From Betaproteobacteria bacterium (GTDB lineage Bacteria; Pseudomonadota; Gammaproteobacteria; Burkholderiales; SG8-41), in NCBI GenBank assembly GCA_021732605.1, contig JAKFUS010000023.1:1-64000 (forward strand): 64,000 bases of DNA, read 5' to 3'. Each line of letters begins with the position of its first letter. Position 1 is the first letter of the stretch. Below the pieces are notes generated by a model. The model was not told the DNA's origin and ran no database searches. It was given only the letters and a program-made list of their open reading frames with translations. Positions 17,674 through 35,342 of this stretch are shown piece after piece. Position numbers and translations under genes: made by a program.

Positions 17674-18333
17674 CTATGCGTCCCGGACTGTATCACGCGC
17701 CTGCTGCATGGCCTGCAGCAGGACTTCCGGATCCTGCGCACCGGACATGCCGATGGTCCGGTTGAAAATGAAAAACGGCACGCCGTTGACACCTGCATTG
17801 CGCGCTTCGATGTCAGCCTTGCCAATCACGTCGGCATCCGCGTCGCTCTCCAGGTACTTCAGCGTCATCTCCCGATTGAGTCCGGCCTGCGTCGCGTAAT
17901 CGGCGAGCACGGCGCTGTCGGTCAGGTTCGCGCCCTCGATGAAATAAGCGCGGAACAGTGCTTCCGCCATCGCATCCTGTTTGCCGAGTTCGCCGGCATG
18001 ATGCAGTAGCCGATGCGCCTTGATGGTGTTCGGTTGCACGGAAATTTTTTCGAACTGCATGTCGAGACCGACGGTCTTGCCAACATCGGCGACACGCTGG
18101 TACTTGGCATGGCCACCGCCGCCAAACTTGCGCTGGATGTAGTCGAGACGGCCAATGCCGGACTCCGGCAGATCGGGGTTCAACTGGAACGGCAGCCAGC
18201 GCACGGCCGGCGGTTCTTCATCGGGATACAGTTCGGCGAACTGTTTCAGCGCGATTTCCAGCTTGCGCTTGCCGATGAAGCACCAGGGTCAAACCACGTC
18301 GGATACGATGTCGATGCTGATGCGTTTGTTCAT
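17674..18333 (-). CDS. DsbA/FrnE-family oxidoreductase, predicted selenoprotein (UPWC)
   Basis: The full frame from the ATG at 18333 (ribosome site GGAG, five bases spacing) gives 219 residues, with one in-frame TGA at 18289-18291. That TGA is codon 15, at the first cysteine of the thioredoxin-type CPWC motif: DVV-TGA-PWCFIGK. The rest is intact, including FQLNPDLPESG and the cis-proline segment GVNGVPFFIF, and fits cytoplasmic DsbA-family/FrnE thiol oxidoreductases. A gene start at the internal ATG at 18204 would delete the whole active site. I infer selenocysteine at residue 15; a nonsense mutation at that cysteine is the alternative. It is the last gene of the carboxylate operon. Confidence 0.8.
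18248..18283 (-). promoter_or_regulatory. Possible SECIS hairpin after the DsbA-family TGA (weak)
   Basis: Two alternative stems lie downstream of the TGA: GTGCTT/AAGCGC, loop starting 11 bases after it, and AGCGC/GCGCT, loop starting 24 bases after it. Neither has the GU-containing loop seen at the other two loci, so support is modest. Confidence 0.35.
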
Positions 18334-18407
18334 GATTACTCCATGAGTGTAGTAGTGAGTCAGTTTACAGCAGAATAATAACTATTTGATTTTATTGGTA
18401 ATTTAAA

Positions 18408-19781
18408 TCAAGAGCGCAGGTGGCTCAAATCGAGCCGGCCGGCAAAAAATCCCGGCACTGACTGCAGAAAACCGCCGCTTTGTTTTTCGCTCCAGCCGCC
18501 GAATGCCGCGTTGAGGCGGAACTTGTCCTCGATGTCGGCGCGCGACAGCGGCTCCTGCACCCCACCGCGGATATGCGGCTGGCGCTCTTCGACCACGCGC
18601 CCATCTTTTAACGTCATCCGCACATGACCTGTGTAGGCTTTCGGATAGGGATTGTTCGGGTCGACCACGTAGCGCACCTTGGCCGCCAGTGCGAGGATGC
18701 GCGGATCGCGGACCGTCTCTTCGGTAAACGCCGCCAGCCCCGCACCGCCGGTGACAAACGCCACCGCAATGTTGAACGGCGCGCTGAATTTCGCCGCGTA
18801 TTCGTTGGCCGGGCGGTGCTTGGACGGCAGCGGATCCCACAGACGGTGCACATATCCTTCCGCGGTTTCGCACAACACGTCGGTCACGTCTTCCGCGACA
18901 AAACCTTTTTTCGCCAGACGCAGCGCGCAATCGACGTAGGGCTGGTTCATGGTGCCGGTGGCATAGGGCTTGAAGGTGATGCGCGAGGTATACCAGTCGC
19001 GGCCGAAGTCACGGGTCAGCACATCGTAATTGCCTTCAGTGGCGCGGGCAAAACCATTGAACAAACCGTGCGTACCCTCGAACACCGTGCGCGGACCGAG
19101 AAAACCCTGCGCACCCAGACGCGCCGCCTGGATGCCCGCCTGCGCAGCCCAGCCGGCGTGCAGGCGTTTGGTCCACGCGCCTTCGGCCAGATATTCGATG
19201 ATGCCGCTGGCCATGCTGCCAGCGATGCCCAGTGCATCGACGGTCTGCTGCTTGTTCAGTTTCAGCGTGCGCGCCACCGCCAGCGTCGCCGCCATCGCAC
19301 CGAGCACGGCAGTCGGATGAAATCCGGATTTGTGGATTGCTTTCGGAATCACCATCGACATCCGGCACAGGGTTTCAACACCGACGACAAAACCCGCCAG
19401 CGCATCGCGCCCGTCGCAGCCAAACCGTTCGGCCGCCGCCAGCACCGCGGGCCCAATGACCGTGCTTGAATGCACCGGCCCACCCTCGAAGGTGTCGTCG
19501 AAATCCTCGCCATGGGTGGCCGTGCCGTTGATCAGTGCCGCGGCCTCCGCCGAGAATGTCTTCTCGTGCCCGATGGCCGTGCAGGGTCCGCCAGCATCGA
19601 CACCGGCGATCACTGCTTTCACATAGTCGGTGTCACGCGCCGCCACGCACAGGCCGACAACATCAATCAGCAACTCCTCGGCGCGGGCGCGCACGGCTTC
19701 GGGCAATTTCTCGGCGGTCAGTGCAATGGCTTGGTCGGCTAGTTTTTCGGCTATTGCTACTGTGGGCAGTTTTGCGGTCAT
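18408..19781 (-). CDS. MmgE/PrpD-family protein (carboxylate dehydratase-like)
   Basis: This 457-residue protein matches the all-helical MmgE/PrpD fold, with the segments HGEDFDDTFEGGPVHSS near residue 95 and GFHPTAVLGAMAA near 160. The family includes 2-methylcitrate dehydratase and cis-aconitate decarboxylase. Beside TTT transporter genes it probably dehydrates or isomerises the imported carboxylate. The ATG at 19781 (MTAKLPTVAIAEKLA) is chosen over a longer frame that reaches 19922. It follows the receptor gene on the same strand and precedes the Sec-type DsbA gene by 74 bases. Confidence 0.9.
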   Translation of the reverse strand: MTAKLPTVAIAEKLADQAIALTAEKLPEAVRARAEELLIDVVGLCVAARDTDYVKAVIAGVDAGGPCTAIGHEKTFSAEAAALINGTATHGEDFDDTFEGGPVHSSTVIGPAVLAAAERFGCDGRDALAGFVVGVETLCRMSMVIPKAIHKSGFHPTAVLGAMAATLAVARTLKLNKQQTVDALGIAGSMASGIIEYLAEGAWTKRLHAGWAAQAGIQAARLGAQGFLGPRTVFEGTHGLFNGFARATEGNYDVLTRDFGRDWYTSRITFKPYATGTMNQPYVDCALRLAKKGFVAEDVTDVLCETAEGYVHRLWDPLPSKHRPANEYAAKFSAPFNIAVAFVTGGAGLAAFTEETVRDPRILALAAKVRYVVDPNNPYPKAYTGHVRMTLKDGRVVEERQPHIRGGVQEPLSRADIEDKFRLNAAFGGWSEKQSGGFLQSVPGFFAGRLDLSHLRS

Positions 19782-19907
19782 CGATTCATCACTATTCACA
19801 TAAAGTAACGGGGGCCAGCGGTCGTTGAAAAAGCGATGGGCGAGCGCGTTGGGAGAGTAGCGACCCAGCGCACACGCCTTTAAATCTTCGCAAAAAGAGA
19901 CTTGAAG

Positions 19908-19940
19908 AACCGCCAATTGCATCCATCACAACTGGCGGTT
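19908..19940 (-). terminator. Hairpin downstream of the tctC-type gene
   Basis: The 8-bp stem AACCGCCA/TGGCGGTT with a 17-base loop lies in the 223-base gap between the receptor gene and the MmgE/PrpD gene. It lacks a strong T-tract, so it may stabilise or attenuate the operon transcript rather than end it. Confidence 0.4.
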
Positions 19941-20004
19941 GCCTTTCAACTACGGCCGCACACCCCGTTGTCATGCTCGTTGTTGTCAGGAAATTCACGG
20001 GAGC

Positions 20005-20979
20005 TTAGCGCACAACCTTGGCACCGGCTTCCTTCAGGATATCGCGCATCTGATTGGTGTAGGTATCGAAGAACCTGGACAGTTCGGCAGACTTCTGGAA
20101 ACCGTCCTCGAACTGCTGCTCTTCAAGGTATTTGCGCCAGGTTGCTGTTTTCGAGAGGCGCAGGAACAGGTCTTCGTAATAAGCCACCACATCCGGCGCC
20201 ACGCCGGGAGGCATCAGGATACCCCGCACCTGCGGCACGTTCGGGATATCAAACCCGGATTCCTTGATGGTCGGTATGTTTGGGAAACCGGCCAGGCGTT
20301 TGTCGGAAACCTGGGCAATCACCCGCATGCCGCCGGCCTTGATGTGCTCACCGGCTTCCTGCGGCTCGATGATCATCATGTTGACATGGCCGCCGAGCAG
20401 CGCGGCAATACGCTCACCACCGCCGGGGAAGGAAATATAGGCCCAGCTGGAATTGGTTTCTTTCATCAGCAGCTGGCGCACCACGTTGTCGCGGCTGGTG
20501 ATCGAACCGCCCGACTGTTTCATCGTGCCTGGAGCTTTTTTTGCAGCGTCAATGAAATCCTTCAGGGTTTTGTACGGGGCGTCAGCCTTCACTGCCACCA
20601 ACGCCGGCTCCAGCACCAGACGCACGATCGGAGTCATGTCCTTGACCGTGTGCTGTGCCTCGGCGCGGGTCAGCGGATTGGTCAGCCAGTTGCCGGTAAA
20701 CACGGCGATGGCGTGGGTGTCGCCTTTTTTCTCTGCCACATAAGCCATGGCGCGCAAGCCGCCACCGCCATCGCGGTTGTTGACCTGAAAACGCACGGGG
20801 GCGAGGTTTTCCTTCTCGATGACCTGAGAGATGAACCGCGCCAGCACGTCGGCGCCGCCGCCGGGTCCCGTGTGTACGATGAACTCGACCGGCTTGGTCG
20901 GCTTGAACTGGGCCCAGGCAGGGGCAGCAGCCAGTGCGGCAGCACAGGCGGCGATGATGATGCGGTTACAGAATTTCAT
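20005..20979 (-). CDS. TctC/Bug-type receptor of a tripartite tricarboxylate transporter
   Basis: This 324-residue periplasmic binding protein has a signal peptide ending AAPAWAQ (about residue 23). The Bug signature is present as KPVEFIVHTGPGGGADVLAR, with the second lobe around FPGGGERIAALLGGHVNMM. The ligand is unknown; the family binds carboxylates. Its gene follows tctB and tctA, so it is the cognate receptor of this TTT system. A GAGGAGG site precedes the ATG at 20979. The first glycine-rich loop is less canonical than in the three Bug proteins further along. Confidence 0.9.
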   Translation of the reverse strand: MKFCNRIIIAACAAALAAAPAWAQFKPTKPVEFIVHTGPGGGADVLARFISQVIEKENLAPVRFQVNNRDGGGGLRAMAYVAEKKGDTHAIAVFTGNWLTNPLTRAEAQHTVKDMTPIVRLVLEPALVAVKADAPYKTLKDFIDAAKKAPGTMKQSGGSITSRDNVVRQLLMKETNSSWAYISFPGGGERIAALLGGHVNMMIIEPQEAGEHIKAGGMRVIAQVSDKRLAGFPNIPTIKESGFDIPNVPQVRGILMPPGVAPDVVAYYEDLFLRLSKTATWRKYLEEQQFEDGFQKSAELSRFFDTYTNQMRDILKEAGAKVVR

Positions 20980-21094
20980 TTTTTAATCCTCCTCGTTTGG
21001 CAGACTTATGTAATTAACTCGGGTAACAAAACCAGTTACCCGTATGGACTGAGGCGAACCGCAAAGGTTCAGCGGCTTAGTTTAGCCACTTATT

Positions 21095-22606
21095 TCAGCC
21101 GTTTTCTTCGAGCGCCTTGACCCGCCAGGCATTGGCGCGGCGAAACAGCGGCAGACACAGCAGGATGACAGCCAGAACCAGCATCGTGGCCGAGATCGGT
21201 CTGGACACCAGAATACTGAGATCACCCTGCGACATCATCAGCGACTGGCGCAGCGCGCGCTCCATCGAGTCGCCGAGCACCAGTCCGAGGATCAGCGGCG
21301 CCGAGGGATAATCCAGTCGCCGAACTGCGTAACCGAGCAGTCCAAAGACCACCAGCATCCAGCAGTCGAACAGGCTGCTCGACACGGCATAAACGCCGAT
21401 GATGGAAATGCCGAAAATGATCGGATACAGGATGTACTCGCGCAGCTTCAAGATTTGCGCAAACAGCGGGATCAGCGGCAGGTTCAGCACCAGCAACATC
21501 ACGTTACCCACGTACATGCTGGCAACCAGACCCCAGAACAGATCCGGGTTCTCCTGGATCATCAGCGGTCCGGGACGCAATCCCCACAGGATGAATGCCG
21601 CAAGCAGGATCGCCGTGGTGCCCGAGCCGGGTATGCCCAGCGTCAGCAAGGGCACCATGGCGCCGCCGGTTTCCGAATTGTTGGCGCCTTCAGGCGCGGC
21701 AACACCCTCTGGCACGCCGGTGCCGAATTTCTCGGGATGTTTCGACACCGCTTTTTCAATGCCGTAGGAAATAAAAGATGCAATCGTTGAGCCAGCGCCC
21801 GGCAGCACACCGATAATGAAACCGACGATTGAACCGTTGAGGAAAGCAAAACGACAGGCCTTGAGTTCTGCCATTGTCGGCAGCAGGTTGCGCAGTCCCT
21901 TGGGCACCGGCAGCATGACGCCCTCCTCGCGTTTTTCCATGTTGCCGAACACTTCACCCAGCGCAAACACGCCAATGGCGACAATCACGAAATCCACACC
22001 GTCGAGCATCTCGGAGCGGCCGAAAGTAAAACGCGATGCATCGCTGAACAGGTCAATACCCATGCTGGCGATCCACAGTCCCACCAGCATCGCCAGCAGT
22101 GCCTTGATCATCGACTCGCCCGCGAGCAGCACCACCATCGCCAACCCCATGAACATCAGCGCAAAATATTCCGGTGAACTGAAGGACAGCCCGAATTTCG
22201 CCAGCGGCGGCGCCAGCAGCATCAGGCCGACCACACCCACCGTCCCGGCAATGAATGAAGAAATCGCGGCTATGCCCAGCGCCGCACCGGCGCGACCCTT
22301 GCGTGCCATCTGGTAACCATCAAGACAGGTCACCACCGACGCCGATTCGCCGGGCACGTTGAGCAGAATTGCAGTGGTCGAACCGCCGTACTTGGCGCCG
22401 TAATAAATGCCGGCGAGCATGATCACTGCGGTGGTCGGCGGCATGTTGAAAGTCAGCGGCAACAGCATCGCAATGGTCGCCGCGGGCCCGAGGCCCGGCA
22501 TCACACCCACCGCCGTGCCGAGGAACACACCGACAAAACACCAGAACAGGTTCAGCGGCTCCAGGGCAACCGCAAAACCATGGCCAAGGCTGGTCAGAAT
22601 TTCCAT
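21095..22606 (-). CDS. TctA large membrane subunit of a tripartite tricarboxylate transporter
   Basis: The 503-residue polytopic protein with about 10-12 membrane segments carries the TctA hallmarks GVMPGLGPAATIAMLLP and GIPGSGTTAILLAAFILWGL, the two glycine-rich loops of the permease. It imports the carboxylate delivered by the periplasmic receptor, driven by an ion gradient. The ATG at 22606 begins one base after the tctB stop, showing tight coupling. The frame extends further upstream inside tctB, which was rejected. Confidence 0.95.
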   Translation of the reverse strand: MEILTSLGHGFAVALEPLNLFWCFVGVFLGTAVGVMPGLGPAATIAMLLPLTFNMPPTTAVIMLAGIYYGAKYGGSTTAILLNVPGESASVVTCLDGYQMARKGRAGAALGIAAISSFIAGTVGVVGLMLLAPPLAKFGLSFSSPEYFALMFMGLAMVVLLAGESMIKALLAMLVGLWIASMGIDLFSDASRFTFGRSEMLDGVDFVIVAIGVFALGEVFGNMEKREEGVMLPVPKGLRNLLPTMAELKACRFAFLNGSIVGFIIGVLPGAGSTIASFISYGIEKAVSKHPEKFGTGVPEGVAAPEGANNSETGGAMVPLLTLGIPGSGTTAILLAAFILWGLRPGPLMIQENPDLFWGLVASMYVGNVMLLVLNLPLIPLFAQILKLREYILYPIIFGISIIGVYAVSSSLFDCWMLVVFGLLGYAVRRLDYPSAPLILGLVLGDSMERALRQSLMMSQGDLSILVSRPISATMLVLAVILLCLPLFRRANAWRVKALEENG

Positions 22607-22607
22607 G

Positions 22608-23072
22608 TCAGAAGCCCAGCGGGCCGGCAGGCAGGCTGAGCTGCAGCGCCAGTCCGAACACCAGATAAAAACCGACGGTATTGCCGACGGCAACCGCCAG
22701 CGCCACTTTCAGCGGCTGGCCATACATCACCGCCACCACAAACAGCGTCAGCAGCGCCAGAGCGAGCAGGAAACCGAGGGGTTTGATCAATGCGACACAG
22801 ACGGCGAACGCCGCCCATACGATCAGCGCGCGCCCGATGCCAGTCCAGTCCACCACTTTTTCCGCAGTGTTTGCGGAAAGCCCAGAACGCAGCACCAGGA
22901 TCAACGACAGCACCACCATGGCCAGGCCGTACCACATAGGGAAAAACCCGGGGCCCGGGCCTTCCGCGGTGCTGTAGTCCCAGCGCCAGGCTTGGCTGAC
23001 GATGTATGCGCCCAGCGCGGCCAGCACTGCGCCGGACACGACATCACCCTTGATCCATTTCGATTGCGTCAC
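22608..23072 (-). CDS. TctB small membrane subunit of a tripartite tricarboxylate transporter
   Basis: The 154-residue protein has four hydrophobic helices and the TctB-like motif GPGPGFFPMWYGLAMVVLS near residue 40. It partners the large subunit encoded immediately downstream. The start is GTG at 23072, with AGGAG eight bases upstream. Function is inferred from the gene order B-A-C and the fold; small TctB subunits are poorly conserved. Confidence 0.9.
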   Translation of the reverse strand: MTQSKWIKGDVVSGAVLAALGAYIVSQAWRWDYSTAEGPGPGFFPMWYGLAMVVLSLILVLRSGLSANTAEKVVDWTGIGRALIVWAAFAVCVALIKPLGFLLALALLTLFVVAVMYGQPLKVALAVAVGNTVGFYLVFGLALQLSLPAGPLGF

Positions 23073-23131
23073 ACTGCTGCTCCTGCTTTACCCAGTACTT
23101 GTAACAAACGGGACTTGATCGCTTTTTGGAA

Positions 23132-23524
23132 CTAAGCGCGTTTGGTTCGTTTGTAACGACCCACCGGCACGATTTCCGCAGTGGTGCCGCCGGGCGCACG
23201 AAATTTCACCGGTATCACACCCGGATCACTGATGATGGTGCAGCCGTATTTCTTGATTTCATCGGTGTACTTCTCGATGTCTTCGACTTCGATGGCGAAA
23301 TGGTGAATACACGGCCCGGCGCCCGATGCCTTGGATTCGGCAGATTGCGTGCCGGCGTCGTATTTGATCAGCGTGAAGTCCATGTCGCCGTCGGTCAGAT
23401 GGCAGGAAATATGATCCCGCGTTTTTTTAGTCACGACCTCCTCAAAGCCGAACACTTTTTGGTAAAACTCGGTGGTCTTTTCAAGATCATCGACTTTCAG
23501 CGCCAGATGCACGATGCGATTCAT
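23132..23524 (-). CDS. VOC-superfamily (glyoxalase-like) protein
   Basis: This 130-residue protein has two beta-alpha-beta-beta-beta modules, starting RIVHLALKVDDLEKT and CIHHFAIEVEDIEKY. The metal ligands expected of a vicinal-oxygen-chelate enzyme are visible as histidines at the module starts and a glutamate near the end (TTAEIVP). Possible activities include epimerase, isomerase, dioxygenase or lyase; which one cannot be told. It sits between the ModA-like gene and tctB and probably takes part in breakdown of the imported compound. Confidence 0.88.
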   Translation of the reverse strand: MNRIVHLALKVDDLEKTTEFYQKVFGFEEVVTKKTRDHISCHLTDGDMDFTLIKYDAGTQSAESKASGAGPCIHHFAIEVEDIEKYTDEIKKYGCTIISDPGVIPVKFRAPGGTTAEIVPVGRYKRTKRA

Positions 23525-23558
23525 GGATACCCCCTCGGTTCAAACGTAAATTGTCGAC

Positions 23559-24260
23559 TCAATTATCAATCTCGTAACCCGCAACGCGCAGGCTGGGCCG
23601 GAATTCCGCAGCCGTCAGGCGGCGCACGAACTCGCGCGCCAGTTCGGGTTGTGCTGCGCGGGCGGCGAGGCCCGCGGTGTAGACCGTTTTCATCTGGAAC
23701 TCGTCGGGCAGCGCTCCGACATAAGTCACACCCTCAATCGGCAGGATCTCGGTGTTCTGGGTGATGCCCAGTTCGAAATTGCCGCTGCTCGCCGCCAGCC
23801 AGTTCATTGCTGCATTGCCATTGGGGAAAAACTGCATGCGGTCCTCGACCTGCGAAGCCACGCCCAAGCGCTCCATCAATTTCATCACGATCTTGCCGGC
23901 GGTTGCCGTTGCCGGATCCGGGCAAACAATGACCGAAGCAGCGAGGATATTGCCGCGCAGCGCTTCGCGGGTCCGCACTTCGGGCAGGGGCGTGCCGGCA
24001 CGTACAGCAACACCAGTGCCGACCTTGCCGATATCGGTCACTGATGACACTGCGACCATGCCGCCGGATACCAGGTCCTGAATCAGTTGTGCGCTGAGGA
24101 TAATGACATCGGTGGGCTCGCCGCCGACCATGCGCGCCTTCATCGCACCGACGGCGCCGTATGCGGCCTCAACCTCATGTCCGTCGCGCCGCAATCCTGC
24201 GATCACCTGCTCACACACAGCCTGTGCCGCCCCGGCGCTCAGCAAGCGCAATACCGCCAT
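23559..24260 (-). CDS. ModA-like substrate-binding-domain protein without a signal peptide
   Basis: This 233-residue protein has the type-2 periplasmic-binding fold of molybdate-binding ModA proteins: LRLLSAGAAQAV at the start, PTDVIILSAQLIQDL, and LGITQNTEILPIEGV in the second lobe. No signal peptide precedes the domain, so it should act in the cytoplasm unless the start is wrong; GGAG lies eight bases before the ATG at 24260. Similar signal-less proteins occur beside carboxylate catabolic genes, and their role is unknown. It is the first gene of the minus-strand operon. Confidence 0.8.
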   Translation of the reverse strand: MAVLRLLSAGAAQAVCEQVIAGLRRDGHEVEAAYGAVGAMKARMVGGEPTDVIILSAQLIQDLVSGGMVAVSSVTDIGKVGTGVAVRAGTPLPEVRTREALRGNILAASVIVCPDPATATAGKIVMKLMERLGVASQVEDRMQFFPNGNAAMNWLAASSGNFELGITQNTEILPIEGVTYVGALPDEFQMKTVYTAGLAARAAQPELAREFVRRLTAAEFRPSLRVAGYEIDN

Positions 24261-24395
24261 GACTTTGCTCCCCGCGGATGAATTAAACTTCCGATGTTAC
24301 CAGCAGCCCCTGCTAACTCCTACCCCTTGGAGTCCGCATAATCCACGCATACAGGGTTGCTGCAGTGCAGTGTCTGGCATAGGCTTCGTCAGATT

Positions 24396-24719
24396 ATGAA
24401 ACGCGTCCACAATGCCCGACACATGACCGAGGCCCACCTGATCCGCGGCTTCCTCGAGTCGCACGGAATAGACGCCCTGGTCCGCGGTGATTTCCTCACC
24501 GGGGGCTGGGGCGAGTTGCCGGTAGACGTCTGCGCGGTCTGGATTACCGACGATAGCCGGTATGAGGATGCCGACCAGTTGCTGCGGGATTTCCTCAGCG
24601 GCTCACTGGCACGCATTCACGGCGGCAAAACCTGGTCATGTCCGCATTGCAATGAAACCATCGAAGGCCAGTTCACTGCCTGCTGGCGATGCGGGGGGCA
24701 AGGGCCGCTGCCTGACTGA
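24396..24719 (+). CDS. DUF2007-type protein with a zinc ribbon
   Basis: The 107-residue protein has an N-terminal signal-transducing-protein-like DUF2007 domain (MKRVHNARHMTEAHLIRGFL and WGELPVDVCAVWI segments) and a C-terminal zinc ribbon with CPHC near residue 84 and CWRC near 98. DUF2007 proteins are presumed PII-like or signalling modules of unknown ligand. It is transcribed away from the carboxylate operon and appears monocistronic. Confidence 0.85.
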   Translation: MKRVHNARHMTEAHLIRGFLESHGIDALVRGDFLTGGWGELPVDVCAVWITDDSRYEDADQLLRDFLSGSLARIHGGKTWSCPHCNETIEGQFTACWRCGGQGPLPD

Positions 24720-24813
24720 TAACCGGCAAAGGGCCGCTTAATGGGCTAGCGAAGCGATCACGACCGCCAAACACCGGCACATCCGGTTTCAATAATCATT
24801 AAATAACAAATTG

Positions 24814-25557
24814 TCATGACTGTGACACGACGTTCGCCCGGTCGCTGGCAATGCGGCCATCCACCAGTTCAACGATGCGATCGCAGCGCTCTGCCAGTCG
24901 CGGATCATGGGTAACGATCAGCAATGCGGTACCGAATTCGCGGTTAAAACGACGCAACAACGCAAAAATACTGTCGCTGGTGGCCGTGTCGAGGTTGCCG
25001 GTGGGCTCGTCAGCCAGCACTAGCTGGGGTTCCTGCACCAGGGCTCGCGCAATGGCCACGCGCTGCTGCATGCCCCCGGACAGCTCCTGTGGCTTCTTGT
25101 CATAGGCTTTGCTCAAACCCACAGCGTCCAGCAGCGTCGTGGCGCGGGCACGCAAGTCGGTGGCCGGCCGCCGGCCGCCATCAATACCGGCGCCGCGCCG
25201 CTGGCCGATCAACCCCGGCATCATCACGTTTTCCAGCGCCGTGAATGCGGGCAGCAGGTGGTGAAACTGGAAAATGAAACCCAGCACCGCATGACGGGCG
25301 TAGGTTCGCTCATCGTCATTAAAACCGGTCACGTCACGACCTGAAAGGTGGTAACTGCCCGCGGAAGCGGCTTCAAGCAAGCCGATGTTGTTCAGCAGCG
25401 TGCTTTTACCCGACCCCGAAGGGCCGATCAACGCAGTAAATTCACCCGGCTGGATGCTGAGGTCAATGCCATGCAGTACTTCCTCCTCGTTAGGCAGGCC
25501 CGCGTTGTAGGTTTTACGCAAACCCTGCAGCCATATCAGTGGTTCGCCGCCTCCCAT
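24814..25557 (-). CDS. ABC transporter ATP-binding protein (MacB/LolD-like)
   Basis: The 247-residue nucleotide-binding subunit has Walker [10 protein letters not shown] (45-53), signature [15 protein letters not shown] (about 157) and Walker B LVLADEP (about 178). It matches the MacB/LolD group that powers mechanotransmission or efflux. The start could be the ATG at 25557 or the GTG immediately before it, which abuts the permease stop codon; the ATG is chosen for its seven-base spacing from AGAGG. It is the last gene of a three-gene export operon. Confidence 0.92.
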
Positions 25558-25560
25558 CAC

Positions 25561-26787: not shown

Positions 26788-27971
26788 CGCTGGTCGCGGA
26801 CGCGGGCGCCGGCCTCCACGTCGCGATTGATGATCACGCGTTCGCCGGCTTTGAGTCCATCGATGATGGCAACACGCCCCCGGGACTGCAAGCCGGTGCG
26901 CACCGCCACCCGGACTGCAACGCCGTCACGCTCGACCAGCACCCAGGGCGCATCGGTCTGCAGCTGCCGCACGCTGTCGGCCGGCAGCATGATGGCCTGC
27001 TTCAACAGGGGCCCCTGCAGATCCATGGCAATGGACATGTCGGACTTCAGCAGCGCCGGCGGTTTGGGCACATCGAGTCGCAGTTCCACCGTGCCGCGCG
27101 CAGCATCTATGCCCGGCGACACATAATTCACCACCGCCTCGAAACGCTCGTTCGGAAACGCATCAGCGGCAGCCGTTGCTACGGCCCCCGTCCTGATCAG
27201 AGGCAGGTTTTTCTCATCGACCTGTACGATCAGCCGCACCGGCCCGTCAAGCGCCAGAGTCATCATTTTCCCTCCCGGCTGGGCAATGTCGCCGGGCTCG
27301 ATCAATCGCTCCAGCACCACGCCGGCGGCAGGCGCGCGGATCAGCGTTTGCGACAGCCGCGCCTGCGCAAACAGAAGTGCAGCCTCGGCCTCGACCAGCA
27401 GACTTTGCGCCTGTTGCGATTCGGCGCCTGCGGCGGACTGCGCACCCGTCTGCGCGCGTGCACTTTCGAGCTGGCTTCGCGCCACATCAAGCTGCCGTTC
27501 CGCATCGTCCAAACGCGAGCGGCTGACAAACCCCTTCGCCACCAGGTCACGTGCGCGCTGCGCTTCGCGTTCGGCCAGTGTGAGATTGGCCTGGGCCTGT
27601 TGCTGTGCAGCCTGTGCCATCGGCAAGGCCAGGGTTTTTACCGAGGACAGCCGCGCCCGCGCCCTTGTCACTGCAGCCTCAGACTGGGCCACAGCAGCTT
27701 TAAGTTCACGCGGGTCGAGTTCAACCAGGATTTCATCGGCAGCCACGCGCGCACCCTCGCGTACCCGCACGGTCTGCACCCTGCCAATAATCGTCGCGCC
27801 GATGTCGACCCGTGACGGCGCCAGCACCCGGCCGCTCGCCACCACGCTGGTCTGGATATCGGCAGGCGCTGCGCTGACCAGTTGCACAGCCACGCCTGCC
27901 GGCCGCAACATGAACAGGATCAGCGCCGCCAGCAGCAGCACGACGACAAGGATGAAGATATTGCGGCGCAT
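26784..27971 (-). CDS. Periplasmic adaptor (HlyD/MacA-like membrane-fusion protein)
   Basis: The product of about 395 residues has one N-terminal membrane anchor (MRRNIFILVVVLLLAALILF) and a biotinyl-lipoyl-like half (VVASGRVLAPSRVDIGATI). A long alpha-helical hairpin rich in Ala and Gln spans about residues 90-190, followed by the returning lipoyl half (TLIRAPAAGVVLERL) and beta-barrel domains. A GTG at 27995, which overlaps the stop of the upstream MmgE/PrpD gene as TAGTG, would add eight residues; the ATG at 27971 gives the usual basic-then-hydrophobic start. Neither has a strong ribosome site. Confidence 0.9.
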   Translation of the reverse strand: MRRNIFILVVVLLLAALILFMLRPAGVAVQLVSAAPADIQTSVVASGRVLAPSRVDIGATIIGRVQTVRVREGARVAADEILVELDPRELKAAVAQSEAAVTRARARLSSVKTLALPMAQAAQQQAQANLTLAEREAQRARDLVAKGFVSRSRLDDAERQLDVARSQLESARAQTGAQSAAGAESQQAQSLLVEAEAALLFAQARLSQTLIRAPAAGVVLERLIEPGDIAQPGGKMMTLALDGPVRLIVQVDEKNLPLIRTGAVATAAADAFPNERFEAVVNYVSPGIDAARGTVELRLDVPKPPALLKSDMSIAMDLQGPLLKQAIMLPADSVRQLQTDAPWVLVERDGVAVRVAVRTGLQSRGRVAIIDGLKAGERVIINRDVEAGARVRDQR

Positions 27972-27994
27972 GGGCAGCCGCGGGTTAACTGCCA

Positions 27995-29386
27995 CTATCG
28001 CGCCAGGAAATCACGCACAGAAGCTTCGTCGTGCAAATTCCAGATGCGTGCAATGACTTCATTCATTTCAGCTGCTGTCGCGGCGCCGGAATAAGCCACC
28101 AGCCGCTGCGCCTTGTCTTCGAGTTCGGCACGCGACAGCGTGTTGCCGGGGTCCCCCTTCGGAGTCTCGACGCGGCATTCCAGGCTGCGGCCGTCAACAG
28201 TCTGCACGGTCACCCGACCGATCCAGCGTCGCGGATAGGCGGCATCGATGTCTTTATCAAGAACCATGCTCACGCGATCATGGAATTTACGTAACTCATT
28301 GTTTTTAATTGATTTTTCAGTAAAGTCCGCAAGCGAGGCGCGACCCAGCGTGGCGATCATCGCGAGCACAAAACCCATCGAGAACTTGGATTGGTGCACG
28401 GTCTGCGGATCGGTCACCGGGCCCAGCACGTCGATAGCCCCCTGATGCACATGCGCAGTCACCTTGACGATGTCATCCGCCTTGAGCAGGTGCTGCCGCA
28501 TCAAGGTCTGCAGGGCATCCGCCGCGGGATGGGTGTGACGGCAGGACGCGTGGAACTTGAACGAAGTCTCCGCCGTCGCCCAGCGCGTACCCAGTCCGTC
28601 GGTCAGCCAGCGTACATCGGCATCGCTGGACATGCCCGCGGCCATGCCCTGCTTGCCTTCGAAGATATCGCGGGCGCCGGTAAAACCATCGCGGGCAATA
28701 TAGGCCGCCATCAAACCGTCGGCCGCCGCTTTCGAGGTGTGCAGTTGTTTCGAATCCGCGGCGTCACGCAGGAATTCCCACAGGCCAGCCGCCATGGTGC
28801 CCGCCGAACCCAGGCAATGTTGCATTTTGTCGGCGTCGAGTTTCAGCACATGCGCAACACCAGCGGCAGCCGCGAGTTTGCCTGCGGTGCCGGTGGTGTG
28901 AAAGATTTTGTAATGCGAACGGCCGAGGAATTCGCCGACGCGCACGCCGCATTCATAACCAGCAACCGACGCCGCGATCAGTTCCTTGCCGGTCGCACCG
29001 ACATCCTGCGCCGCAGCCAGTACGGCGGGAAACACCACCGTGCCCGGATGCAGCACCGAGCTGTTGTGCAGATCATCCTGTTCGACAAAATGAGAAGCAG
29101 CACCATTGACCAATGCCGCAAAAAGCGGAGACGTGCGTTTGCGCGTCAGCAGATTCTCGGCGCTGCCGTCTTTGGGGCCCATCGCCGCAGCAAACGCATC
29201 AATCGCGGATACCGGCCGTGCGCCCTTCCCCGCCAGTGCCGACGCCAACCAGTCGAGGAACAGATCCTCGGTACGTGCAACCACGGCCTGCGGCAGGTCT
29301 TCGTAGCGGATTGCCGCAAGAAAAGTGCTGAGAGTCTGCGACGGACTGACGGCAGGTGCCGGTTGTTTCTTGACGGGCATTTGCAT
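27995..29386 (-). CDS. MmgE/PrpD-family protein, second copy
   Basis: This 463-residue protein of the MmgE/PrpD fold has the segments HFVEQDDLHNSSVLHPGTVV near residue 98 and FKFHASCRHTHPAADAL near 283. It is only distantly similar to the copies at 18408 and to prpD at 56173. It is divergent from a citrate-synthase-like lyase gene with a 90-base shared promoter region, suggesting that both handle one branched or citrate-like carboxylate. The reaction (dehydration, isomerisation or decarboxylation) cannot be assigned. Confidence 0.9.
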   Translation of the reverse strand: MQMPVKKQPAPAVSPSQTLSTFLAAIRYEDLPQAVVARTEDLFLDWLASALAGKGARPVSAIDAFAAAMGPKDGSAENLLTRKRTSPLFAALVNGAASHFVEQDDLHNSSVLHPGTVVFPAVLAAAQDVGATGKELIAASVAGYECGVRVGEFLGRSHYKIFHTTGTAGKLAAAAGVAHVLKLDADKMQHCLGSAGTMAAGLWEFLRDAADSKQLHTSKAAADGLMAAYIARDGFTGARDIFEGKQGMAAGMSSDADVRWLTDGLGTRWATAETSFKFHASCRHTHPAADALQTLMRQHLLKADDIVKVTAHVHQGAIDVLGPVTDPQTVHQSKFSMGFVLAMIATLGRASLADFTEKSIKNNELRKFHDRVSMVLDKDIDAAYPRRWIGRVTVQTVDGRSLECRVETPKGDPGNTLSRAELEDKAQRLVAYSGAATAAEMNEVIARIWNLHDEASVRDFLAR

Positions 29387-29476
29387 GTTGGGCTCCGGTA
29401 TATGCGGTATTTTAAAACAAACCCCCGTTTTACCTGGGGTAAGCTTCCATCGATCAAATTATCAACGGGGAACCAC

Positions 29477-30256
29477 ATGGCAAAACGCAAATCCATCCGC
29501 ACCGACATCGCCTGGAGCGCGATCGACCGCATTACCGTCAAGGGACACGATCTGTGCAGCGAAATCCTCGGCAAGCTGTCGCTGGGCGACATGGCGTTTC
29601 TTGAAATCACCGACCGCCTGCCCACACCACGCGAATCGGTGATGTTCAATGCCATCGCAGTGACACTGGTCGAACACGGCCTGACGCCGAGTTCGATTGC
29701 CGCACGCATGACCTACACCGGCGCGCCCGAAGCCATGCAGGCCGCCGTTGCCGCCGGGCTGTGCGGGCTGGGCAGCGTGTTTGTCGGCAGCATGGAAACG
29801 GCAGCGCACATGCTGCAGGAAGCCCTGCCCGATCCAACCGTCGCTGCCGACCTCGACCAGCTCGCCATCCAGATCGTTGAACGTTTTCGATCGCGCAAAC
29901 AAATAGTCCCCGGCATCGGCCACACGCTGCACAAACCGGTGGATCCCCGTGCACCGCGGCTGTTCGCCATCGCCGCCGAACAGGGTTACGACGGCCCTTA
30001 TGTCCGGTTGATGCAAAAAATCGGCGCGCAGGCGGAAAAGGTTTACGGCAAATCACTGCCGGTCAACGCCACCGGCGCCATCGGCGCGATTGCCAGTGAG
30101 CTCCGGCTGCCGTGGAAAATCGTCCGCGGCATCGGCGTGATGGCGCGTGCCATCGGCCTCGTCGGCCACATCCTCGAGGAAATGAAAAACCCGATGGCTT
30201 ATGAAATCAAGCAGCGGGCGGAAGAAGAAGCCACGGCGCACTTACGCAATGATTGA
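29477..30256 (+). CDS. Citrate-synthase-like protein (citryl-CoA lyase type)
   Basis: At 259 residues this protein is clearly shorter than citrate synthases (about 430). It keeps the C-terminal catalytic segment PGIGHTLHKPVDPRAPRL, with the histidine and aspartate expected for CoA-ester condensation or cleavage, and the family N-terminus RTDIAWSAIDRITVKGHDL. Short members of this group are annotated citryl-CoA lyase or citrate/methylcitrate synthase-like. The open frame runs far upstream, antisense to the neighbouring gene; the ATG at 29477 with GGGGAACC before it marks the real start. Confidence 0.85.
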   Translation: MAKRKSIRTDIAWSAIDRITVKGHDLCSEILGKLSLGDMAFLEITDRLPTPRESVMFNAIAVTLVEHGLTPSSIAARMTYTGAPEAMQAAVAAGLCGLGSVFVGSMETAAHMLQEALPDPTVAADLDQLAIQIVERFRSRKQIVPGIGHTLHKPVDPRAPRLFAIAAEQGYDGPYVRLMQKIGAQAEKVYGKSLPVNATGAIGAIASELRLPWKIVRGIGVMARAIGLVGHILEEMKNPMAYEIKQRAEEEATAHLRND

Positions 30257-30435
30257 TTCTTTCCAAAAACACGACAGCCTCGCCAGAAGCCTGTTTTTGT
30301 CATTATTTATGCAATTTTTAATAAAGCAATTCCTGCAGCGCAGCATATTTACAACGGTTGACAACGTCATGCAGCAGCGCAAAATCGCCATTCCTGACGA
30401 TCGTCCGATCGCCGGAAATTCGGGAGGAGTTAAAA

Positions 30436-31044
30436 ATGAAACGACTGTACGCGATTGCACTGGTCGCCGCGGCACTGCTGGTGGCCGGCTGCGCCCATAC
30501 GCCTTCACAAGGCTGGATCACGCTGATCGACGGCGAAAAAGGTCTTGAAAATTTCAATCGTACCGGTGACGCCAACTGGCGTGCAGAGGGCGGCGCCATT
30601 GTGGCCGACAAGGCCAAGGGCTCATCGCATCTTGTTACCAAGAACTCTTACCGGAATTTTGAAATCTATGCCGAGTTCTGGGCAGACACCACAACCAACA
30701 GCGGCATTTTCATGCGCGCTGCTGATCCCCTGAAGATTGGCGCCAACAATTCGTACGAGGTGAACATCTACGACCAGCGCCCCGGCCAGGAATACAGCAC
30801 CGGCGCCATCGTCGATTTCGCCCAGGTCAAGGCACCGCTGCCCAAAGCCGGCGGCAAATGGAATACCTTTCTGATTTATGCCAATGGCCCGGAATTGACG
30901 GTTAAATTCAATGGCGAGGTGACCGTCAGCACCATGAACAGCCAGTTCAAGGAGGGACCGTTCTCGCTGCAGTTCGCCAATGGTCCTAAGGATGCCCCGG
31001 GCGGCCCCATCAAGTGGCGCAAGGTGATGGTCAGGCCGCTGTAA
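30436..31044 (+). CDS. DUF1080 (3-keto-disaccharide hydrolase-like) lipoprotein
   Basis: The 202-residue lipoprotein has signal sequence MKRLYAIALVAAALLVAGC with the lipobox cysteine at about residue 19, then a concanavalin-like DUF1080 domain (GWITLIDGEKGLENFN, NFEIYAEFW, NSGIFMRA and WNTFLIYANGPELTVKFNG). Members bind or cleave 3-keto-glycosides; many are uncharacterised. A GGAGG site precedes the ATG at 30436. It ends in a strong terminator and faces the UGSC gene. Confidence 0.88.
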   Translation: MKRLYAIALVAAALLVAGCAHTPSQGWITLIDGEKGLENFNRTGDANWRAEGGAIVADKAKGSSHLVTKNSYRNFEIYAEFWADTTTNSGIFMRAADPLKIGANNSYEVNIYDQRPGQEYSTGAIVDFAQVKAPLPKAGGKWNTFLIYANGPELTVKFNGEVTVSTMNSQFKEGPFSLQFANGPKDAPGGPIKWRKVMVRPL

Positions 31045-31072
31045 TACCGTCCACCGGAGGCACTCCGGCAAC

Positions 31073-31105
31073 GAAACAAAGTGGGCGCAAGCCCCCTTTG
31101 TTTTC
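31073..31105. terminator. Bidirectional terminator between the DUF1080 and UGSC genes
   Basis: The hairpin AACAAAG-tg-GGGC-gcaa-GCCC-cc-CTTTGTT, with A and T tracts on its two sides, lies between two convergent genes. Confidence 0.8.
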
Positions 31106-31123
31106 AAGCCTTACCGCAGCAGC

Positions 31124-32854
31124 CTAGATCCGGCACTCCTCGGAGCTGCATCCCAGATCGCGATCCGACTCTGCCAGCAGACGATCGAAAGTTTCCGGCA
31201 CACGCATCACGCGGCCAATGACGGCCGGTGAATGCGCCTGCAGCCACTGGCTGTGTGTCGGGTGATCACCGCCGGCAACGATCAGGATGATGTTGTCGGG
31301 GTTTTTCGCAATCGGCCACGGGTCGAGCTTGATGCTGTCGCGCACTGCCGGGCTTGGATCAATTTCGATCCATGCCGGTCCACCCGCGCGTTTCAGCTGT
31401 GACATCGGAATTTTCGAGTTTTCCCACAGAAATTCGCGCAGCTTCTGCGGCGTCCAGCCGAGTTTGGCCATCATCCCGGCCACCACTGGCGACACCAGCA
31501 TCGCACCCGGTGTGCCTTGATCCCAACCCGCCAGTGCTGCCATGTTGGGAGTGCGCATGAAATCCGCCATGCGGTGCAGGCCCTGCGTCACGTCCTCTTC
31601 CGGCGTTTCCTTTTTTGCGCCACGGCGGCGGATGTTGCTGACGCCGCTGGCAAACATTACCGATACCGAGTTGGTCCCCGGTGTGTAACCGTGGCGTTGC
31701 GTGGCATGCGGCAGCCAGCCCGCGGGCAGACTGGCTTCGTCCTCAGCGAACACTGCGTTGGTGTAACGCATGGCGCCATAAATCGCCATCGTGCCGATGC
31801 CCGGCAATGCACCGCCGACGTTTTGCTGCAGCAGGCGCAGCGCGCGGCCGATGCTTGCGCCCGCCGGACGCTGCGGATCGGGCCCGAGACAGCCGAAACC
31901 GGAATTGAGGCGGATCTCCTTTGCAATAGGACCATTGACGATGACCACCGGAAACGGACCGCCCGATGTCGCCTGCAACTGATCAAACAAGGCCGATGGA
32001 TCCAGGCAGGCCTCCACCGCGGCCAGCAGCACCGGCAGATATTCCGGCCGGCCACCGGCCATCGCCAGTGCTATGGCGCAGGTCTCCACTGTGGTGATGC
32101 CGCCGCGGGACGGGAATTTGCCGAGCACCTGGGTACGCGGCAATGCTGAACCGCGCAGCATCCAGTCCACCCGTTCGCGCGTCGCCGGCCATATCGGCAG
32201 ACCGTCGCCCCACAGGTTGGTCAGCAGCAGGTTGTTCGCCTTCTGCAGTGCATCCTCATAAGACGATCCCTCGACCGCCAGCAATGGCGCTTCCCCAACT
32301 GCGGACTGCGCGAACTCCGACTGCCATCCAGTCAGCCCATGGTAGAACTCGCGGTGGCGCGCCTCCAGCGCGGACAGGTCGCTGCCCGGCAGGAACATGT
32401 CGATCGGAAACGTGACCATCGCTGCATCCGGGGCGAGCCCCAGCCCGGATACGGCATTCTTCATGACACCGACAAAATCCGTACGCGTCAGCGTGACGGT
32501 GGGGATACCGAGGATTTCAATTTGTGCGGCTGCACGGCCGCACGCAGTGGCGCAGGACCCTCAGGACGCGTTGCCGACGATAACCGCATCCACCCCGCTT
32601 TTTTTGACCAGCCTCGCGGTTTCTTCCGTAGGGATCAGCACGTTGCCCTGGGGATAAGCATCAATCGGCAGCAACTCAGCAGTCGGGAAATCCTTTTGCA
32701 GCAAATCGCGCAGCAAGGGCAGCGTACGAAACGCCTGCCATTGCTCATTGCTGACAAAACCGATCTTCTTGCCGTCAAGACTTTTCAGACGTGCTGCAAA
32801 CGAATGCGTGACTTCCAGCGTTCCCGAGGGATCGTAAAATTCGAGTCTGGTCAT
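31124..32854 (-). CDS. UGSC-family protein, predicted selenoprotein (UGSC)
   Basis: The full frame from the ATG at 32854 is 576 residues, with one in-frame TGA at 32561-32563. It reads IVGNAS-TGA-GGG-TCC-TGC, that is U98-G99-S100-C101, the exact UGSC motif that names a bacterial (seleno)protein family. Residues 1-130 form the small alpha/beta domain holding the motif; the long remainder includes GDGLPIWPATRERV and GPIAKEIRLNSGFGCLGP segments and is intact to the stop. A 7-bp hairpin follows the TGA. The function of UGSC proteins is unknown. Ordinary gene calling would split it into a 97-codon piece and a 446-codon piece. A Bug receptor gene lies 43 bases upstream on the same strand. Confidence 0.88.
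32524..32543 (-). promoter_or_regulatory. SECIS-like hairpin after the UGSC-gene TGA
   Basis: On the transcript a perfect 7-bp stem GUGCGGC/GCCGCAC encloses the 6-base loop CGUGCA, the loop beginning 24 bases after the TGA. The distance, small loop and early loop G fit bacterial SECIS elements read by SelB. The loop shares CGUG with the hairpin at 34586-34602. Confidence 0.7.
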
Positions 32855-32897
32855 GATTATTCTCCGTCCATGGTTTAACGTTAAATCGCAAAAACCG

Positions 32898-33884
32898 TCA
32901 ATTCGCTTTCATCCCGGTGGCCACCACCACCCTGGACCATTTCTCGCCTTCGCTTTTGACAAAAGCCGTGAACTCATCCTGCGCCAGCGGCGAAGGTTCG
33001 GCGCCGTTGGCATTAAACTGCTTCACTACCTGCGGCAAACGCACGATACGAATCGCCTCATTGCCCAGCTTTTCCGTGATCACCCGCGATGTCCCGGCCG
33101 GCGCAAATAAGCCCAGCCAGTTCAGCATCTCGTATCCCCGCAGACCGGCCTCGGCAATGGTCGGCAGCTCCGGCAATACAGCGGAACGTTGACCCGAGGT
33201 GACCGCCAGCGCCCGCAACCGGCCGCTTTTGGCATGCGGCGTAACCGAGGTCGCAGTACCAAAGGTCATCGGCACTTCCCCGGACACCACGGCCACCAGC
33301 GCCGGTCCACCACCCTTATACGGCACATGAACGAACTTCGCCTTCGCAAGATATTCGAACAACGCCGCCGCGAGGTGCGTGGATGTTCCGGCACCGGCAG
33401 ACGCGTAGTTGATCTGCCCAGGACGCGTACTTCCCAGCGCCACCAGATCTTTGACTGAGCGCACCGGCAGTGATGGATGTATGGCCAGAATGCCCGGCGC
33501 ATCAGCGAGCCGGGCAATCGGCTGAAAATCGCGCAGTATGTTGTAAGACAGATCGGGATACAGGCTCTGGTTCACGGCATGAGTCCCGAGGCTGCCGATG
33601 ACCAGCGTATAGCCGTCTGGCGCGGATCGCGCGGCCAGCTCAGAGCCTAGGACGCCCCCGGCGCCACTGCGATTATCGACAATAACCTGCTGGCCGAATG
33701 CCGAGCCCATCGGTACGGAGATCAATCGAGCGGTAAAATCGACGAAGCCGCCGGGCGCAAACGGCACGATGATGCGTATCGATTTGACAGGATAGCTTTC
33801 AGCAGCGGCAGCCTGACCGGCATAAAACAATCCACTCACATTGAGCCAAAGCCACAGCCGCAGATGGTTGCCCAACACTCTCAT
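32898..33884 (-). CDS. Bug-family periplasmic receptor (TTT type), beside the UGSC gene
   Basis: The 328-residue binding protein has a signal peptide ending YAGQAAAAE and the Bug motif SIRIIVPFAPGGFVDFTAR, with a second-lobe VPYKGGGPALVAVVSGEVPMTFG. No tctA or tctB accompanies it, which is normal for the many orphan Bug receptors of Burkholderiales. The ATG at 33884 follows GGAGAAGCC; a longer frame was rejected. It is flanked by two selenoprotein genes: UGSC downstream on the same strand and a GrdB/PrdB-like gene divergent on the other side. Confidence 0.9.
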   Translation of the reverse strand: MRVLGNHLRLWLWLNVSGLFYAGQAAAAESYPVKSIRIIVPFAPGGFVDFTARLISVPMGSAFGQQVIVDNRSGAGGVLGSELAARSAPDGYTLVIGSLGTHAVNQSLYPDLSYNILRDFQPIARLADAPGILAIHPSLPVRSVKDLVALGSTRPGQINYASAGAGTSTHLAAALFEYLAKAKFVHVPYKGGGPALVAVVSGEVPMTFGTATSVTPHAKSGRLRALAVTSGQRSAVLPELPTIAEAGLRGYEMLNWLGLFAPAGTSRVITEKLGNEAIRIVRLPQVVKQFNANGAEPSPLAQDEFTAFVKSEGEKWSRVVVATGMKAN

Positions 33885-34106
33885 GGCTTCTCCAGAAATT
33901 GCAGGGCTATTGTTGCCTTCTCTGCCCATGGTCAGGGAATATCTTTTAAGCGATGAAGCATGGCAAGCCATGGCCCGCATTATGATCGACTGCGGGTCAA
34001 TCATTGTAAGGAAAAACTGTTAACCCCGACTCATCGGTGAAGGATATCGACAAGTTGATGATCGAACGTATTTTTCCGATTTAATCACTGCAATCAGGAG
34101 AATAAC

Positions 34107-35342
34107 TTGGTAAGAATGGCTGATATACCCGAATGGGAACGGCACCACCACCTGGACAAAATCGGTGAATTGCCGGATTTCGGCATAACCCCATTTGTTG
34201 CCGGTCCCCCACTCCGTCAACGGCGTGTCGCCATCGTCACCACGGCAGGCCTGCATGTACGCAACGACCGGGCCTTCGACCCGGGCGCTGCGGATTACCG
34301 GATCATCCCGGGTGACACCCCGCCGGCAGATCTGGTGATGAGCCACACCTCTGTCAACTTTGACCGCAGCGGTTTCCAGGAGGACGTCAACGTCGTGTTC
34401 CCGCTGGAACGATTGCGGGAGCTAGCCGCCGGAAAACAGGTGGGATCGGTTTCCGATTACCACTACTCGTTCATGGGCGCCGCGCCCATCCTCGCACTCG
34501 AACCCAAGGCCCGCGAACTCGCCAGTCTGCTGAAAAAAGACGGTGTGGACGCCGTCCTGCTGAGTCCCGTCTGACCCAACTGCACGTGCGCCGTGGGCGC
34601 ACTGGGCCACTTCCTCGAACGCGAGGGCATCGCAACGTCGCAGATCAGCCTGATCCGCGAACAGACGGCGGCATTAAAACCACCGCGCGCGTTATGGGTG
34701 CCGTTCATGCTGGGCCGACCCTTCGGCGCCCCCGACGAACCAGATTTCCAGCGCAGGGTGCTGCACGCGTTGCTGATGCTGTTTGAACGACCCACCGGGC
34801 CGGTGCTCGAGGACTTCCCCGAAGACGCGCCCGAGGGGGCCAGCCACGAAGCGGAAACCACCTTCGCCTGTCCGGTCAGTTTCGCCAAAGCAGCCGTAGA
34901 CGATGGCAAGCTGGACGCAGCCTTGAAGCGCGAAATCGCGCAGCTTGCCCCGTGGTACGACCTCGCCAAAAAGCGGCGTAGGCGCAGCACAGTCGGCATT
35001 TCGGGGCTGGGCATCGAAGGCGCAGCAAGCCACGCCGCGTCCTATCTCGATTCGACACCAGCCGCGCCTTATGCCGGACTGTCGGCCGGTGTTGCTCTGA
35101 AGCGCGCCTGCGATGACCTGAAAGCGTATTACTACGAAGCCGTCGCCGCCCAGCCGGGGAACCTCAAGGCCGGGGACATCGAGCACTGGTTCTGGCACGA
35201 AACAACCGCGGCAAGGGTTTTCCTGGCAATCCAGCAGGTCTGCCTGAACAGCCCCGACAAGTCGTTGCTGCCCTTGGGCAGGATCAGCCTGGTGCCGCGT
35301 TCTGTGCAACACGCGCTGACGGAAGCAAAACGGCAGTCATGA
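34107..35342 (+). CDS. GrdB/PrdB-like reductase family protein, predicted selenoprotein (UPNC)
   Basis: The full frame is 411 residues, with one in-frame TGA at 34572-34574 (codon 156): AVLLSPV-TGA-PNCTCAVGAL. In glycine/sarcosine/betaine reductase subunit B and D-proline reductase PrdB, a selenocysteine stands at this place in a UxxC motif after a hydrophobic strand. The following VGALGHFLEREGIATSQI and LWVPFMLGRPFGAPDEP segments match the family. The start is taken as TTG at 34107 because AGGAG lies six bases upstream; an ATG at 34116 is possible. A perfect hairpin follows the TGA. Substrate unknown: this aerobic-looking context has no grdA or prdA, so it is a family relative and not a Stickland reductase. 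Confidence 0.85.
34586..34602 (+). promoter_or_regulatory. SECIS-like hairpin after the GrdB/PrdB-like TGA
   Basis: The perfect 6-bp stem GUGCGC/GCGCAC has a 5-base loop CGUGG that starts 17 bases after the TGA, about the same distance as in the E. coli fdhF SECIS. Stem and loop resemble those at 32524-32543. Confidence 0.7.

Follow-up and report, generated by a model that had tools for sequence, protein, structure and literature searches.

The window considered here, a stretch of 64,000 nucleotides from a Betaproteobacteria bacterium (SG8-41; assembly GCA_021732605.1, contig JAKFUS010000023.1, positions 1-64,000), contains three genes with one in-frame TGA each which, judged from sequence comparison, are very probably real selenoprotein genes: one for a DsbA/FrnE-like oxidoreductase, one for a protein of the UGSC family, in which the UGSC domain is paired with a second domain, Unknown_1, and one for a PrdB/GrdB-like protein. 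The genome (G000) spans 3.48 Mb in 75 contigs and is 96.5% complete. A first-pass annotation, made from the letters alone, had proposed that each frame is open except for a single TGA falling where a redox motif expects cysteine or selenocysteine (Sec, U), and this is borne out: the DsbA and UGSC genes lie on the minus strand and the PrdB-like gene on the plus strand, and every TGA is the first position of a UxxC motif (V-U-PWC, S-U-GSC, and V-U-PNC, respectively). A standard-code reading splits all three genes into pieces. The genes and their predicted Sec codons are:

17674..18333, minus strand: Sec-containing DsbA/FrnE-like oxidoreductase, 219 amino acids, V-U-PWC (PF01323, E 9.8e-37)
18289..18291, minus strand: predicted Sec codon TGA of the DsbA gene, codon 15 (from comparison of TGA and Cys at this column)
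31124..32854, minus strand: two-domain UGSC selenoprotein, 576 amino acids, UGSC domain at about 1-165 and Unknown_1 at about 190-576 (PF24696, E 6.4e-20, residues 7-151)
32561..32563, minus strand: predicted Sec codon TGA of the UGSC gene, codon 98 of 576 (TGA in 43/43 loci)
34107..35342, plus strand: PrdB/GrdB-like selenoprotein, 411 amino acids, TTG start, V-U-PNCTC (TIGR04483, E 7.5e-27, below cut-off; PF07355, E 3.7e-7, above cut-off)
34572..34574, plus strand: predicted Sec codon TGA of the PrdB-like gene, codon 156 (TGA in 24/24 aligned rows)

The DsbA-like protein belongs to the DsbA family (127 bits against a PF01323 cut-off of 25.6, active site UPWC), and from this family we take it to be a dithiol/selenol oxidoreductase. 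The UGSC protein exceeds the threshold of its Pfam family (PF24696; 72.4 against 25 bits) and falls short of the equivalog model NF041046 (45.5 bits, 125 required); the Pfam search returned no match to its C-terminal part, Unknown_1. The PrdB-like protein passes the GrdB domain model (PF07355; 30.2 against 22 bits), scores far below the D-proline reductase PrdB model (TIGR04483; 94.3 against 300 bits), and beyond residue ~224 of 411 matches none of the models used. Its terminator is also a TGA.

Evidence for Sec comes from the TGA columns, whose alignment the first-pass annotation had proposed as a check; the counts are drawn from related genomes and are not independent events, the named relatives being mostly metagenome-assembled genomes (MAGs) of Betaproteobacteria/Burkholderiales with a few of Rokuibacteriota. 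Among the UGSC loci the codon is TGA in all 43 examined (44 were fetched, L062 being too short). Three divergent homologues (L160, L204, L205) have Cys at this position in a CGTS motif, so that the second Cys is lost as well and no CxxC pair is left. All 24 rows of the PrdB alignment, including the window, have TGA; the Cys form was not seen there, UGA only. For DsbA, TGA occupies the column in 32 loci, namely the 30 best matches (L163-L192, not a random draw; L163 is the window) together with L207 and L209, and Cys (TGC or TGT) occupies it in 11 of 11 others (L193-L203; eight from other families of the order, three paralogues), which had been picked because an earlier scan reported no stop there. 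The codon is thus kept as UGA or Cys across homologues, the exceptions being two UGSC paralogues (L206, L266) in a relative, G021, with Ala at the Sec column; these are perhaps non-catalytic copies. As a side matter, the contigs of public MAGs at L020, L044, L056, L061, and L042 are titled Bordetella parapertussis or Chitinophaga pinensis, yet carry the uncultured Burkholderiales gene, and the titles look like mislabels.

The machinery for decoding UGA as Sec is complete, and it lies outside the window, as had been predicted: tRNA-Sec (75.9 bits, anticodon tca), selA (571 bits), and selB (423 bits) are together on contig C44, and selD (421 bits) is on contig C6, the SelD gene itself containing a TGA (motif GGGUGCK). 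A genome-wide search therefore does not refute the Sec reading but supports it. Within the family to which the window belongs, selA exceeds the cut-off in 65 of 72 genomes, compared with 15 of 48 sampled from the rest of the order. The two-domain UGSC protein is matched in 72/72 of the family genomes, in some to the C-terminal part only; outside the family, matches occur in 3/48 genomes, all three of which have selA.

UGA would be read as Sec by the organism's own SelA, SelB, SelD, and tRNA-Sec, presumably via a downstream hairpin, or selenocysteine insertion sequence (SECIS). A scan for synonymous constraint in 20-codon windows was applied to UGSC and PrdB only, the DsbA hairpin being judged by energy. 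The UGSC codon alignment comprised 39 of the 44 loci plus the window (L051, L057, L059, and L062, which are partial, and L027 were left out), and the PrdB alignment 21 of the 25 loci L118-L142 plus the window (L118), L148, and L155, with extra stops in L127, L139, and L141. In both families the lowest synonymous variation straddles the TGA: codons 90-109 in UGSC (Sec 98; rank 1 of 556 windows) and codons 155-174 in PrdB (Sec 156; rank 1 of 391), a minimum that is consistent with a SECIS. The hairpins in question are:

32524..32543, minus strand: candidate SECIS hairpin of the UGSC gene (GUGCGGCCGUGCAGCCGCAC), predicted, overlapping the synonymous minimum at codons 90-109
34586..34602, plus strand: putative SECIS hairpin of the PrdB-like gene, GUGCGCC-GUG-GGCGCAC, conserved (from the synonymous minimum and hairpin energy)

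The UGSC hairpin is conserved and its energy is not exceptional. Of 100 synonymous recodings of the window's PrdB-like gene, one gives a hairpin as good as or better than its best one, and across the PrdB set 5 of 24 sequences do better than 95% of recodings (median z -1.4), which is suggestive. Hairpin energy as proof of a SECIS failed for UGSC, was weak for DsbA, and was suggestive for PrdB only; the scan for synonymous constraint was the more informative for UGSC and PrdB. A search of the whole window with Rfam at gathering thresholds gave no matches.

The UGSC domain is nearly always accompanied by Unknown_1, fused or adjacent on the same strand within 500 bp: in 46/46, 6/6, 22/22, and 30/32 domains in four partly overlapping groups, making Unknown_1 a near-obligate partner. 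The AlphaFold model of the UGSC protein is confident (mean predicted local distance difference test score, pLDDT, 86.6; predicted template-modelling score 0.85) and places Sec 98 after a strand (90-96) and before a helix (99-114) in a domain that looks Rossmann/flavodoxin-like. Its best PDB match by Foldseek is weak (B12-binding domain 2yxb, E 6.5e-3). In the PrdB-like model (pLDDT 79.3), Sec likewise sits between a strand and a helix in a similar local arrangement, and B12-binding photoreceptors are matched weakly. Foldseek against the PDB found nothing at E<=0.001 for either model and no convincing match for Unknown_1; PDB sequence searches gave no match at E<=0.1 for the PrdB-like protein and one weak match only, to a spore protein (E 0.87), for the UGSC protein.

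The UGSC family is amplified in this family of Burkholderiales. Counting these families only, the window's own genome has six UGSC, two PrdB-like, one DsbA, and one SelD gene with Sec. Far more are found in the relative G021 (98% complete, 2% contamination). Of the 57 UGSC loci inspected there, 53, a few of them partial, carry TGA at the Sec column in a matched domain otherwise free of stops; the remainder comprise one with Sec and a stop, the two with Ala, and one fragment. Two of the 53 were flagged with an additional TAG or TAA in a genome-wide search, and the number of Sec UGSC copies is fairly given as 51-53. Over the domain, no copy is more than 76% identical to its nearest paralogue (median 65%), a divergence that speaks against strain mixtures. 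With one or two PrdB-like genes (one flagged with a TAA) and one DsbA gene, G021 reaches a total of about 53-56 selenoprotein genes from three families alone. Passages of a 2026 review (PMC13188914) give the largest bacterial selenoproteomes as 57 and 63, the latter in a Methylomirabilota MAG credited to Deng et al. 2026, so the G021 figure approaches the largest published; that MAG may share the same biology. The passages on UGSC in this review and in PMC2398784, PMC5029168, PMC9312934, and PMC9402790 do not describe the amplification or the link to TctC considered below.

The neighboring genes bear on what the UGSC enzymes might do. In the window these include:

32898..34004, minus strand: TctC (Bug) periplasmic carboxylate receptor, 43 bp upstream of the UGSC gene on the same strand (PF03401, E 2.3e-65)
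20005..20979, 36317..37306, and 37494..38444: further TctC (Bug) receptor genes from the genome-wide TctC count
18408..19922, minus strand: MmgE/PrpD dehydratase-like gene (Pfam), 74 bp upstream of the DsbA gene on the same strand
16166..17632, minus strand: gene with a protein kinase domain and EF-hand matches, adjoining the DsbA gene

Homologues of the kinase-domain gene are found at 12 of 43 DsbA loci, and an MmgE/PrpD homologue adjoins 17 of the 32 Sec-DsbA loci, the window included in both counts. Around UGSC, the recurring neighbors are TctC, MmgE/PrpD, CoA-transferase, and LysR genes. A TctC gene lies within 400 bp of UGSC in 4 of 6 modules of the genome itself (binomial probability 0.003 at an assumed rate of 13%) and in 12 of 20 modules of relatives, flanks being long enough. 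MmgE/PrpD-type genes, taken as one cluster named by its representative, are present at 9 of 19 UGSC loci, at six of them within 2.2 kb of UGSC. In a set of 43 loci, whose neighbors were grouped by BLAST and named by Pfam from one representative per group, same-genus orthologues of the window's UGSC gene have an operon-like row of MmgE/PrpD (6 loci), UGSC, a four-rhodanese protein (6), an HMG-CoA-lyase-like protein (7), and CoA-transferase III (8, one from another genus), a hint of sulfur chemistry with an organic acid as substrate. The row occurs at L019-L022, L026, L027, and L055 and is not complete at each of them.

A functional three-gene cluster was considered and mostly rejected, because linkage of PrdB to UGSC is uncommon among relatives: no PrdB was found in the flanks retrieved for 46 UGSC domains (L019-L061), and UGSC is linked at 2 of 25 PrdB loci when the window is counted as one of the two. 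Two arrangements stand against the rejection, PrdB, UGSC, and TctC in a row in G047 (L159) and PrdB near two UGSC genes in G021 (L155), both loci having been fetched for that reason. The cluster is probably mostly a local coincidence in a selenoprotein-rich genome. The related proposal of the first-pass annotation, a concentration of selenoproteins around genes for carboxylate uptake, is borne out only in part: four of the six UGSC modules have a TctC neighbor, but receptors are numerous throughout the genome and PrdB is rarely near one (TctC in flanks of up to 1.5 kb at only 4 of 25 PrdB loci, including the window).

These observations are best explained by a two-part enzyme in which UGSC contributes the Rossmann/flavodoxin-like domain, its Sec opening a helix, and Unknown_1 the other part, the whole presumably located in the cytoplasm (no signal peptide is apparent by eye). 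That each UGSC-Unknown_1 pair acts there on a particular organic acid, often the one bound by the neighboring TctC, is a possibility we would put a little short of even. By analogy with GrdB, PrdB, and FarB, the selenolate might break a carbon-heteroatom bond (C-S, C-N, or C-halogen) next to the carboxylate, although this is quite doubtful. The PrdB-like protein might act in the manner of a GrdB/PrdB selenolate subunit, though one lacking a GrdE/PrdA partner; chemistry of that type is plausible for it by the same analogy. The full proposal is that this uncultured family has built one of the largest known selenoproteomes from amplified UGSC-Unknown_1 rather than from the usual anaerobic reductases, with dozens of divergent copies, each tuned to a different organic acid, often with their own TctC, and representing a new class of Sec enzymes cleaving carbon-heteroatom bonds (perhaps C-S, given the multi-rhodanese neighbor in relatives) next to a carboxylate; it is offered tentatively, being unlikely to hold in every part.

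Several observations weigh against the explanation as a whole, the selenoprotein reading included, or against parts of it. TctC is near UGSC at only 13 of the 38 orthologous loci whose flanks were long enough, and it is so common in the genome that its adjacency to UGSC is weak evidence, suggestive only: the 3.48 Mb contain at least 150 TctC (Bug) genes among 212 candidates, a very large receptor set for the size. The rhodanese neighbor, like the whole operon-like row, is absent from the window. PF09338, the GrdE/PrdA type of partner, has no matches in the window's genome. A first profile comparison of UGSC with PrdB gave E 2.5e-5 with the Sec columns in register, and a broader set gave E 1.7e-3; this is no better than a control pair, PrdB and DsbA, which scored 4.4e-4, so homology is not claimed and is unproven either way. 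For the SECIS, the synonymous minimum in UGSC begins before the TGA, and the window directly after it ranks 84 of 556, compared with 7 of 391 in PrdB, where the signal is therefore cleaner; the RNA downstream of the UGSC codon is, by the median, not as stable as its synonymous recodings (z +1.88; 0/40 sequences better than 95%), and the DsbA hairpin is hardly above chance (2/30 better than 95%; median z -0.72).

Other explanations can be set beside the selenoprotein reading and the proposed role of UGSC. Single in-frame stops are common in draft genomes, of which this assembly of 75 contigs is one, and the TGAs might be ordinary stops in pseudogenes or products of assembly error; given that the same codon is kept at 43/43 UGSC loci, in 24/24 PrdB rows, and at the best 30 DsbA loci, that the protein is conserved to either side of it, and that the Sec machinery is complete, the chance of this is negligible, and the earlier argument that ordinary nonsense mutations are very unlikely stands. 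The PrdB-like gene might instead be a true D-proline or glycine reductase subunit, as its TIGR04483 E-value of 7.5e-27 and its PF07355 score above cut-off would allow, but this is very improbable: the TIGR04483 score is 94 of the 300 bits required, and PF09338 is missing from the relatives G005, G014, G047, and G076 as well as from the genome itself. The exception is G021, in which a PF09338 GrdE-type gene follows by 50 bp a distinct GrdB-like match (L208, C148:4000-9000) that is 24% identical to the window protein.

For UGSC-Unknown_1, a general thiol or peroxide oxidoreductase is a rival that we consider somewhat unlikely, if to be taken seriously. A passage of PMC2398784 suggested such a role in 2008 for a thioredoxin-like UGSC domain, UxxC motifs are typical of redox proteins, and most families of that survey are described there as thiol oxidoreductase homologues or as having a thioredoxin-like fold. 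The model of the UGSC domain, however, is Rossmann/flavodoxin-like, with a B12-binding domain as the best of weak PDB matches, and a set of several dozen divergent paralogues, with carboxylate genes next to many of them, fits enzymes specific to their substrates better than a role in general redox defence. Handling of metals or organometals, with Sec as a ligand and the neighbors incidental, has a precedent in that some other bacterial selenoproteins have been proposed to act in heavy-metal detoxification (as noted in PMC13188914), but none of 18 neighbor representatives has a metal-related Pfam name (two are unnamed), the recurring neighbors being those listed above, and this explanation is improbable.

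If UGSC-Unknown_1 enzymes do act on organic acids, their multiplication suggests a large, unexplored set of selenium enzymes linked to organic-acid use. The most selenoprotein-rich bacteria are described in the relevant passages of PMC13188914 as predominantly anaerobic (Thermodesulfobacteriota, Synergistota, Clostridia); here a betaproteobacterial clade nears that selenoproteome size through one family, UGSC, whose function the same passages leave open. The near-obligate partner, the receptor neighbors, and the operon-like rows make this function directly testable. Since a standard-code reading fragments the genes, annotation can easily miss such enzymes, and so can models of how these uncultured bacteria use organic acids.

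Each of the three proteins can be compared with known systems. The DsbA-like protein resembles the “DsbA 1” selenoproteins of marine metagenomes, likewise pfam01323 in the passages concerned (PMC2398784), and the only differences demonstrable for it are lineage and the MmgE/PrpD neighbor. The PrdB-like protein has in common with PrdB of D-proline reductase and GrdB of glycine reductase protein B the Sec-xx-C motif and the GRDB Pfam match; it differs in the lack of a GrdE/PrdA-type partner in its genome, the low score with the PrdB model, and the unmatched C-terminal half. The UGSC protein shares Sec at UxxC and its domain with the UGSC family (PF24696/NF041046) and with the fusion to a conserved domain, “UGSC/Unknown_1,” described by Zhang and Gladyshev (2008; passages of PMC2398784), whose Unknown_1 is probably the C-terminal domain found here. 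Unlike in that description, the partner is near-obligate, fused or adjacent, a single genome can hold more than 50 Sec copies, there is linkage to TctC and MmgE/PrpD, and the NF041046 score is low. A further system for comparison is FarB, the fluoroacetate reductase of Cloacibacillus, for which passages of PMC10838667 describe a GrdB-type Sec subunit acting on a small carboxylate, an operon with a transporter, and eight Sec grdB genes in one genome: the Sec subunit, small carboxylate, transporter, and many Sec copies per genome are points of observed or proposed likeness, but FarB belongs to a two-component GrdB/GrdE system in an anaerobe, and homology of UGSC-Unknown_1 to it is unproven.

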